Positions 2,486-8,400 of a stretch of DNA of 64,000 nucleotides are shown in pieces (position 1 is the stretch's first letter; every line of letters begins with the position of its first letter). The stretch is from Odobenus rosmarus divergens. Lineage: Eukaryota; Chordata; Mammalia; Carnivora; Odobenidae. Below the pieces are notes generated by a model. It did no database searches and was not told the origin of the DNA. It worked only from the letters and a program-made list of their open reading frames with translations. A program made the translations under genes and the position numbers. The stretch covers positions 50,649-114,648 of the forward strand of contig NW_004452126.1 of assembly GCF_000321225.1 (NCBI RefSeq). Direction: 5' to 3'.

Positions 2486-5400
2486 CTGAGACAAAAATAA
2501 TTCCCATTTAATACAGAGTCCCGTTTTGAAAATTTAAAGGAGATAAATTTTAATACAGTATAAGCCACAAATATCTAGCAGGAACAATCACCACAGAAGT
2601 CAAAAAGAAAGGAAGTCAGACAGATGGCCTTCAGTGAAGAAATGAGATTGAGTACTGACCCTCAGTGTGGGGTCGGGGGACGCCAGCGGACGCCGGGGTC
2701 GGGGGGTGGCGCCGACCCTCAGTGTGGGGTCGGGGGACGCCAGCGGACGCCGGGGTCGGGGGGTGGCGCCGACCCTCAGTGTGGGGTCGGGGGACGCCAG
2801 CGGACGCCGGGGTCGGGGGGTGGCGCCGACCCTCAGTGTGGGGTCGGGGGACGCCAGCGGACGCCGGGGTCGGGGGGTGGCGCCGACCCTCAGTGTGGGG
2901 TCGGGGGACGCCAGCGGACGCCGGGGTCGGGGGGTGGCGCCGACCCTCAGCGTGGGCGCCTGGCCCAGCTAACACATCGGTGGTGCAGAAATTACATGGG
3001 AGGCTGGGAGAAGCAGCTCAGGACAAAAAAATAATCAAGACCGGGGGACCCAGTATTAGTGACAGACTACTCATTTCCTCCCCAGGGACTTCATTCTAGA
3101 ACACAAGACCTAGCCACTGATAGCAACAAGAGAACAAAAAAATTGATGCATTTCCGAGAGAGCTCCAATAACCTGTTTCGAAAGCCCCACACCCACAGCC
3201 TGCAGTCTGACCTCCCAGAGGGGCAGTCTTTTCAGATGCATTCTGTCCCCAAACACACCAAACTCAGGGTCCTCTCCTAACTTTCAGGAATTTTGAGTAT
3301 GAACTCAAAACACAACATGGTTCTAAAGAGCAAATGCATTCTTCTACTCAGACCCATGGCATCTGAACAGACTATCAGGGTGTGAAAACAGCCTAAACAC
3401 AAACACATCCACACCACAGAAACAGAAGCACATAGAATGTAATCCATCCAAGCGGAACGGGCCGAGTGCCGTCCTCAGAGCTGTCCCAGAGCCGGACTGG
3501 GAAGTGGCCTCCGGTCCTCAGGGAGTGCGCTCCTCTCTGTGGAAAAGACCTTGCTCCATAGTTTTCTCCTCCTCCCACACCCAGAGCCGGCCGGGCAGTC
3601 AACTCTGCAGAGCCGTTTCCTATCACCTCCTAGGCCTCAACCCATCATAAAAGCGGCATTTTCTTCTAGAATTTTTATACCTTTTGTTTTGCTTTTTAGT
3701 AATTTATGATTAATATATAATATATATATTAATATATGGGACATTTTTTTGCATAATGGATGATCCATTGCCTCAACGCCATTTAAGAAATAATCCATTT
3801 TCTTCTACTTCATTTTTCTTATTCTTTAAAGCACTGCCTTTACCAAAGTCAAGTCACATACACACTTGTTTCTCCACTCGCTGTTCTGTTCCATTACGCC
3901 ACATATTAATTCCTGCATTAATACCACAGTGCTTTCATCACCATAATTTTGCAATATGTTTTCGTATTTGCAAAGGCAAATATTCCTGCATTATCCTTTT
4001 TCAATTTTTTTGGCTCTTACTCATTAAGTTCTCTTGAAAACTGCACGGAGATTGACTTGAATTTTACAAAATGCACTTACTAATGTATCTTGTACAATTT
4101 TAAGATCCTAGAAACTGAATTATTTGAATGAAAATCAAAATCTCACTGGGGTGCCTTAGTACCTCTTTTAGCTTATGAAATACAGACATTTCTAAGACCA
4201 GTAGGAGCTGAACTGATTACCTGATTTACAAAAACCTTATATATGAATCAAATTTTTAAAAAATTATAAACTTTTCAGCCCATTTCTTACCTTTTCTGCA
4301 TCTTGAGCTTCACTTGCACTATACCGTAAAACCTCACATTTCTCACTGTAAGAAAAGGCAAGAAGAAATTCAATGTAAATTTTCCAAGCTTATACTAATG
4401 CACAAATGAATACATGACAGTAAAGTCTACCGCTACAAACGTTAAAGCTGGCCATTCTTTGAAGGGGACAATGTGCTGCTCCCGTGGCCTCAATGGCTGA
4501 GGAGGACCTGCTAGCAACCGACTAGACAGTGATGACAGCAGATGTGTCTCCCGACTTCCCTTCTGGCTACCCCGCCCCCACCCCACGGGCATGAGAGACC
4601 AGGGGCTGAGGGGGGCAGGACACACGGGTCACCACTGCCGTAGGTCCATTATCAGACTGGACGAAGGCACCCAGTGCCTCACCAAGACGTGGGCGCAGAG
4701 AGCAGCCAAGTGGTGGAGGAGGAAGGATGGGCACTCGAGCTGCTAGAATCTAGGAGACAAACTGACTCCGCAGCAGGAAGGCAACAGCCCAGTTCCCTTA
4801 GTCCTTGGCCCTTTGTCTGGACACTGAAAAACCATAGCTAGGTCCTGAAAAGAAGGGGACAGCAGGATGCTCTTTCCAGCACTTCTGCCCGTGCCCCCAC
4901 CACGTCTGACGCAGACGGCTGGCTGCCCGGCCTGGAGATGACCGGAAGCCGACAGATGGGTAAGTCTGTACCCGACAAATGAAGAGGCTGCCTCTGCTAC
5001 CACCTCCAGACCAACCCGTGGGAGACCTGAGGCCTCGACGCCGGCCAGAGAGGCCAGCGAGGCCGCCCAGGAGGCCCATCACCGCAGAAACGTCTGACCC
5101 CCTTCCAGCAAAGGGGCCAGCAGAATGTCAAGGGCAGACTACTACTCCCCCCGGGTCACCTGCACGGCACACACAAGGAGATTACACAAGGGACACTGTC
5201 TCGTTTAGGAGTCTACAGCACAGCACCCCCTACTGATGGGGTGTAAATCCATAGAGAGTCCAAGACTTCACAAGCTATCCTAAACCTGAAATCCGCATCT
5301 GACCCTCCACAATGGTATCCAACTTCTCCAACCACGAGCCACCATCGGCAGGCCACGGCTTAATGAGCTCAAGTGCCAGCTAAAGCGCCCGGATCAGTAT

Positions 5401-8400
5401 CACTACTACAGACTCCGACGAATCCCCAACTTCTTAGGTGCTGCGATTACAGATAACGCCTGTATTAGACATTCAAAGGAAGTCGTCCGACTAGATGACA
5501 GTTTCTCGCTGCAGCCAGATCACTGCATTTCCCGTCTCATTAAAGACATATGAAAACGTCAGAAACCGCAGGCACAATGACGTTGGATCCATAAAGCCAG
5601 AAATCCGCCCTCATGGCTGGAGCACCAGCTGCCCCTCACGCGAGAGCTCAGCATAGTTCCTCCGCAAGGGCCCGCGCCTCCCACCATTGCTGAAGAGAAA
5701 GGCATAAAGGGCAGTGATCTCCCCCTACAAGCCACACGGAGTCCGACGTAAACCACGTGTGTAGGAGACAGAGTCGTGGACACTCCCTGATGATCGAGGG
5801 AGGCCGGCTGGTACGGAAGCATTACTGTCTACCACACAGCCATGTAAGCGCTCACCATTTGGCATCCCTGGAGTAGCTATCCCAAGCATGAGCACGACAG
5901 GTCAGGAGAGCAGTGACAGGTGCCTCCGGCGCACAGAACAGCACATTTCCGAAGCCCCCGCCAGGCGGCAGGCGCTGCGTGGGTGTGCAAGGGGACAAAG
6001 ACAGGACTCCAGACCATCCACTGAAAACAACTCACAGAGCCAATTTCATAGCCTAACATTTCCATCTTCCATGTGACTCGATTCAACAAACATTTATTTT
6101 CTGGGTGCCTATAACAAGCAGCGCCCCACGGCAAATGCCTCAGTAACAGACAAACTCCCGGGGGGAGTAGTAGTCTGCCCTTGACATTCTGCTGGCCCCT
6201 TTGCTGGAAGGGGGTCAGACGTTTCTGCGGTGATGGGCCTCCTGGGCGGCCTCGCTGGCCTCTCTGGCCGGCGTCGAGGCCTCAGGTCTCCCAACTCTAC
6301 ACTTGCATCACAGCATCAGAAAGAAGATCTATTCTGTCCCAGGAAAACAGAGGACACTGGACACAACAACCCCTCATTCCCACCGGCTTGTCTGTGAAGG
6401 GAGGCCGAAACAAAGAGGGTGGCCAACAAGGGTGTCAGAGATTCAGGGAGACCGTCAAGACCTGAGGAGTGAATTCAAAGCCACCCGATCCCCCAGGCCC
6501 ACCTCTCCCAGGAACCACCGGGTCTCCCGGGAACAGCAGTGCTGACAGTGACATTTACAAACAGAGCAGAGTAAATGTCTCTTCACAAGTGAATACACGG
6601 ATGTTTGCCAAACCCAGCTATACTCAAACTTAAACACATTCAAAATCAAGGTAATGAAGATAAAAAACATATTCTCCACCAATTTTAAGCATAAATGTTG
6701 ACAGAGTCAGAAAATACATATTCCTACGGTAGTTCACTGTGCCTCCTAAAATCTCTCAATATGACTCTGGCCAAAGCCGCACTGTTCTTCACGCGTTCAC
6801 AAAGGACACATAACAAGACAGCGTCCCGGTCGTGAAAAAAGAGCTAACACAGGAGAGACCAGCTCAGGTGCAGACAGGCATTCAGAGCCCCTCGGACGGT
6901 GGCCACCAATCATACCCAGTAAATCCGCTTTGCTTCAAATACTGACATTCAAGCTAAAACGCCCTTCTCTTATTTAATTTTGATTTTATTGCTAAATTAC
7001 TAATATTCTAACAATTTTACCTTCTAAGGTTAGCCACTGTAAATATATAATATGTAACTAAATGACTTAAATAAACAGACCTAGAAAATCTAAAACGGTT
7101 TCTGTGGGGAAATACCTCCTGAATTCTAAAACACAGAGACTTATAAACTTTAGATAACCTATTCATGATAGGTTTCTTAAAATTTCATGTAAAAATTGTT
7201 AGTTCTAGTCAAATTTCCCAGTGAACTTCCAAGAGAAAACCTCGAGATGCAAGTACATCACCGAGCTGAAGCAGGATCCTGGTCTACAATCGAACACTTA
7301 CGTAAGACAGGCTGCACAGAAACTTTCACGTAGGTGTCCTTTTAAATGCGACAAATGACCTCTAACGTAAGGGTTTCCGTAACTCCACACAGCTTGAGCT
7401 ATGACAGCAGACAGACCATATATATGCTCAGAAGACAGAGCGGACAACAGCAGGACCATGAGGGGAGAAACCAATGCCCGCGGCATAATGAGTCTCTGTG
7501 GCAGGAGAGTGCGTGACCTACAACTTTTAAAAATCTATACTATGCTATTCATTTGCAAAAATCAAATTAATCCCACACAGACATTCACAGACCCATCCAC
7601 TGTTCTCATACAAACTGCTCAAAGCAGAGCTCCATTAGACTCTCCTGAAGCAGGCAAGGGGACGGTCCCCAGCCGGGAGGCCAGCCCACGCACGCTGTCT
7701 TCGGGTGAGCATGCTACAGTCTGCAGCGTGACCATCGGCCGTGGAAAGGTGCCCGCTTTTCATGGAGCCAAGTGCATAACCTCAAGCCTGTCCTGTTTGC
7801 TACCATGTGCTATACGCATTACTTGAGAGACACACACCTACCCAAAGCGCCTCTTCTCCCCTTCACCTTGGTTTGCCCGATGCACAGCGAGAGAGGACTA
7901 CCAAAGCAAGTGCGCCACTGTCGGGCATGCGGGGACATAACCAGGGCAGGTATCCGTGCCGGAAGAGAGACAAATAAAACCACACCGTGGCTGCTTATGA
8001 GCGCAGCAGCACAACTCGGTGCCCACCGCTGAGCGTGCCAGCCCCACAAACACAGCCAGACACTCCACTCAGACGTGCACTTTTCCCTTTCAGGTGGTCG
8101 ATGCTGGTGACAAAGAAAGCAAGCAAGCAACCTGGAAACTTGGTAAGGATTACAATGCAAAACAGAGGTCCGTTTTCTCCGTACGTAAGTCTAAACCTCC
8201 TGACCCATGGTGGCGTGAGCCCCTTGGACCTGAGAAACATCCAACCCCCCTGGGAAGAAAGGAGGGGAGCTCTTTCCCCCAAAGTGCAAGTCTCTGCTGC
8301 TCACCAGAGGGGAACACACTGTACTACTGGGACTTAGCAAAGGCCGTGAAGGCCCCATATTAAGTCACAAGAACACAACACTCCCCACCAGAGCACCTCA

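Follow-up and report, generated by a model that had tools for sequence, protein, structure and literature searches.

Complex germline insertions, in which for example a piece copied backwards is followed by one copied forwards, accounted for 33 of 103 curated events in one person and 26 of 99 in another, according to the available text of a study of templated insertions (PMC8421209). The same text reports at least 1 bp of homology at 138 of 155 and 135 of 148 germline junctions. Inverted duplications are a related outcome. As far as the accessible part of a survey of 1,019 humans goes (PMC12350158), they form the commonest class once mobile-element events are set aside, with 277 of 733 inversion calls; their median length is 284 bp, and most carry 1–15 bp of microhomology. 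Another replication scar, described in the accessible portion of PMC13334657, is the small inverted triplication of about 150 bases, and class 2 templated sequence insertion polymorphisms (TSIPs) have junctions with microdeletion, microhomology or filler in the sections available of PMC5110952.

Here we describe a 189-base block in the walrus Odobenus rosmarus divergens, found in a stretch of 64,000 nucleotides that was analysed as a whole (the window). In its best reading, which we regard as very probably correct, the block is one local templated insertion made from two templates.

The block, its two sources and the surrounding gene

The block occupies positions 6157–6345 of the plus strand and consists of an inverted and a direct copy joined without a gap. 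Positions 6157–6293 are the inverted copy of a 137-base source at 5019–5155 (donor 1, minus strand), matching its reverse complement at 137 of 137 positions. Positions 6292–6345 are the direct copy of a 54-base source at 11196–11249 (donor 2, plus strand), with 54 of 54 positions identical. Neither match extends by a single base at any end. A sequence-only reading had reported this 137-bp inverted repeat and 54-bp direct copy with all coordinates right, and the 2-bp ‘ca’ that it placed at the seam is found as well, as a CA overlap of the two pieces at 6292–6293 of the plus strand.

Replication-type templated insertions consist of exact or near-exact copies of sequence that remains elsewhere, and they draw on more than one template or on an inverted one, usually nearby. 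Both features are present here: every base of the two matches is exact, and there are two local templates, one of them inverted, at 1.0 and 4.9 kb from the block and hence both within 5 kb. The donors lie about 6 kb apart in opposite orientation, and their copies abut inside the block with the 2-base overlap. With copies that abut and donors so far apart and oppositely oriented, one patch requires fewer assumptions than two events, and parsimony favors a single event. We infer, again by parsimony, that the block is the derived copy, since the reverse would require two events that each took exactly one side of the same seam.

Repeats elsewhere in the window gave a background for these matches. 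There are 71 exact pairs of at least 22 bases, counted with words occurring more than 30 times omitted. No inverted pair in the window is longer than the one of 137 bases; the runner-up, in SINE-like sequence, has 27. Among direct pairs the 54-base one ranks first once tandem arrays and an olfactory-receptor duplication are set aside. Ten first-order Markov shuffles yielded maximum exact matches of 15–16 bases in direct and 16–18 bases in inverted orientation. A chance origin of the block is excluded, because the shuffles give at most 16 (direct) and 18 (inverted).

An open olfactory receptor frame of 312 aa lies at 31757–32695 on the minus strand (Pfam 7tm_4), and a tandem copy 8.2 kb away at 40004–41041 is identical to it at 1022 of 1060 aligned positions, in an alignment that spans only about 1.06 kb; in this second copy 22 bases are missing and the frame is broken. 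About five copies of a G+C-rich 57-base unit, 99% alike, stand at 2657–2956, roughly 170 bases away from a match to an NDUFA10 exon. A G+C-rich minisatellite at 53709–54146 has a 57-base period with 44-base variants and a unit unlike that at 2657, and a 19-base unit forms a perfect array of 3.3 copies at 29549–29610. Dispersed SINE-like copies, about 60–93% alike, occur in both orientations at 10153–10310, 15661–15815, 44742–44891 and 56958–57113, among other places, and resemble carnivore tRNA-derived SINEs.

The surrounding gene is NDUFA10, on the minus strand. With the human NDUFA10 protein as query, tblastn gave seven matches that run from 18.9 to 2.4 kb, none with an E value above 7e-5, together with a weak match (E 2.6) to a first-exon-like piece at 22.0 kb. 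The translation of 17825–18073 matched 15 distinct PDB sequences with a best E of 1e-42, all of them named NDUFA10 or 42 kDa subunit of complex I. A Pfam scan of one NDUFA10 exon translation returned no family, and the exon was identified by the PDB comparison. Exon limits are those of the tblastn matches and are approximate, with flanking letters mostly not at splice sites. By these exon matches, the block and donor 1 lie in one intron, between coding-exon matches at 10427–10525 on its upstream side and 4267–4347 on its downstream side (both minus strand); the preceding intron, between 10525 and 11886, contains donor 2. The earlier assignment of the block and both donors to the same gene is thereby borne out by the NDUFA10 matches.

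That donors and target all fall in introns of one gene would also suit a break patched with reverse-transcribed RNA, much as in class 2 insertions, with two cDNA pieces in opposite orientations drawn from NDUFA10 pre-mRNA or an antisense transcript. Class 2 insertions lack poly-A and target-site duplications, and experimental ones have a median of 191 bp in the available text of PMC5110952. However, DNA templates in cis explain the locality in fewer steps, and in the system described there the inserted pieces map to distant regions of the genome. We consider an RNA patch of this kind quite improbable. Slimmer still are the prospects of a local RNA-templated scar, in which nascent NDUFA10 RNA from two introns would have been reverse-transcribed in cis at a germline break in the same gene.

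Junction letters and retrocopy readings

The junctions were read letter by letter, and all homology counts given here presuppose that the target lost no bases. At the left junction the target ends GACAAACT and the copy begins CCCGGG; in donor 1 the word CCCGGG is preceded by AGGTGA, the adjoining base differs between target and donor, and clean homology is 0 bp. At the seam donor 1 reads TCTCCCA|CGGG, donor 2 reads CCCCCCCACG|CAACTC and the block reads TCTCCCAACTC, with CA common to them. At the right junction AGGAA is followed by target AACAGAGG; donor 2 continues GAAACA, and the adjoining base again differs. Clean homology at left, seam and right is therefore 0, 2 and 0 bp.

Slightly displaced from the seam, CCCACG is present in both donors. 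A shared word of at least 6 bases within 8 bases either side was found in 3.2% of 4000 random site pairs, which, with three junctions examined, is only suggestive of a switch that used this longer, displaced word. Displaced shared words at the outer junctions are ordinary, with 3 bases at the left (equalled by 87% of random pairs) and 4 at the right (42%). A third template at the outer junctions was sought and rejected: 6080–6160 and 6340–6420 match other parts of the window exactly over at most 12 bases, about the chance level.

Some amplified libraries are known to produce inverted local chimeras as an artefact, and a chimeric read or misjoined gap filling in the assembly could in principle have produced such a block. 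Yet joins with 0–2 shared bases are unlike k-mer overlap joining, and the flanks continue on both sides, such that a chimera would need several switches together with majority support. An assembly or sequencing artefact is, in our judgment, very unlikely.

A retrocopy had earlier been dismissed on the ground that the two pieces have opposite orientations. That reasoning does not hold in principle: in L1 twin priming the 5′ part of an insert is inverted and a direct 3′ part follows it. PMC12350158, in its accessible part, mentions twin priming as a source of L1 5′ inversions. The lack of a poly-A tail, also pointed out from the sequence, was confirmed: there is none at the block end or in the right flank. 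Missing poly-A, missing splice dinucleotides and nearby donors counter a retrocopy better than orientation does. A spliced retrocopy was rejected, as the bases at the donor edges are TC (5156–5157) and CG (11194–11195), not GT/AG, and poly-A is absent; read on the minus strand the edge dinucleotides are CG and GA. Twin priming of NDUFA10 sense RNA was rejected for its wrong geometry, the gene lying on the minus strand.

Twin priming of an antisense, plus-strand transcript would fit the order of the block, with its inverted 5′ part ahead of its direct 3′ part, and the 6-mer AACAGA, found at 6145–6150 of the plus strand and again at 6346–6351, would then be a short target-site duplication. Several observations speak against it. 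The poly-A tract and polyadenylation signal of class 1 TSIPs and L1 retrocopies are missing, with no poly-A tract at 6346 and no AATAAA in donor 2. Between the pieces a 6-kb stretch of transcript would be absent, from edges without GT/AG, and the donors are next to the target. A target-site duplication would place at least 5 bp at both junctions, but the left AACAGA stands 6 unexplained bases away from the block. A shared 6-mer is, moreover, common at control sites (9–12%): at least 6 shared bases occurred at 11.5% of 3000 random sites and at 9.3% of sites between 4 and 13 kb. The repeated AACAGA is most likely chance, and we hold twin priming of an antisense transcript to be extremely unlikely.

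Proposed origin, age and consequences

The two-template local insertion can be laid out as a short series of steps. Template-jumping DNA synthesis would have patched a break or a stalled fork in the germline, located in the NDUFA10 intron at about 6156/6346. In a plausible copying order, read on the plus strand, synthesis would first have run backwards through 137 bases of the opposite-strand template, starting at 5155 and ending at 5019. At a short shared word (CA, possibly within the displaced CCCACG) it would then have switched to 11196, from where it would have copied 54 bases in the forward direction before rejoining the original strand at 6346. The reverse copying order, from the other end, is equally possible. 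With the donors kept in place, the outcome would be an inverted and a direct short duplication fused as a 189-base insertion.

The sequence-only reading had proposed an MMBIR-type templated insertion. Its core, a local insertion from two templates, stands as the most economical account, but the attribution to MMBIR specifically is not supported as stated: 0 bp at the outer junctions and a weak 2 bp at the seam give MMBIR no preference. As to enzymes, MMBIR-like replication, fork template switching and polymerase-theta type end joining would fit the sequence equally. One finding counts against the two-template insertion itself, namely the 0 bp of homology at both outer junctions, unlike most reported germline junctions.

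Across 191 compared positions there are zero differences between block and donors; donor 1 contains 8 CpG and donor 2 none. At assumed rates of 1.0–2.2e-9 per site per year, whether or not CpG sites are given a tenfold rate, the 50% value for the age is 0.5–1.8 million years and the 95% upper limit 2.0–7.9 million years. The lack of mismatches had been taken to mean a recent event, possibly still polymorphic. To judge from the alignment, the event is probably young, although what the zero count yields is only this upper bound, under the assumed rates.

The identity of the copies could also reflect an older event followed by gene conversion, and inverted arms only 1 kb apart might convert each other. 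Against this, the 54-base piece, whose donor is 4.9 kb off, is identical too and is short for conversion, and youth would explain mismatch-free copies more simply. Gene conversion of an older insertion strikes us as exceedingly improbable.

The inverted copy also has a bearing on the NDUFA10 transcript. A hairpin-capable pair in the pre-mRNA had been noted, and the predicted fold agrees: folding of the 1320-base minus-strand segment forms 137 of 137 arm pairs. By tblastn the stretch separating the hairpin arms has no NDUFA10 coding match, and both arms are in one intron. The hairpin is therefore in no position to cause skipping or circularisation of a known coding exon. There is no sign of a function for the block. 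A perfect 137-bp inverted repeat with a 1-kb spacer may nonetheless be a site of later instability or RNA editing. The block is also a base-exact, two-template local patch in a carnivore, and would be useful in calibrating the rate at which such scars enter the mammalian germline. Neither use in calibration nor potential for instability or editing alters current understanding.

Comparison with described insertions

Among the titles and abstract openings listed for literature on carnivores, template switching and NDUFA10 none describes this insertion, which does not mean that it is unpublished. In the text available of PMC8082928, ‘templated’ occurs in the reference list only.

The comparisons that follow are with the systems as set out in the available portions of the papers. 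The block resembles the complex germline MMB-TIs (PMC8421209) in its inverted piece followed by a direct one, its nearby templates and its short seam homology. The MMB-TI search, however, took inverted templates at most 100 bp from the insertion, and the templates of the block are 1.0 and 4.9 kb away. With human inverted duplications (PMC12350158) it shares an inverted copy of a few hundred bases and short or no junction homology; unlike them, it has a second, direct piece fused on. Class 2 TSIPs (PMC5110952) are likewise templated patches without poly-A and of similar size, but their donors are distant in the genome and are thought to be RNA-derived, whereas both templates here lie within 5 kb. 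In the short-range template switches of great apes, described by a four-point model (PMC7954356), reverse copying similarly gives rise to a perfect inverted repeat. In the gold-standard set the median length of a copied piece is 12 bases and the maximum 128, in contrast to 137 plus 54 bases at kilobase distances here. The block reaches farther than short-range scans look for. It is most probably a DNA-repair or replication scar of a known kind, and an ordinary member of its group.
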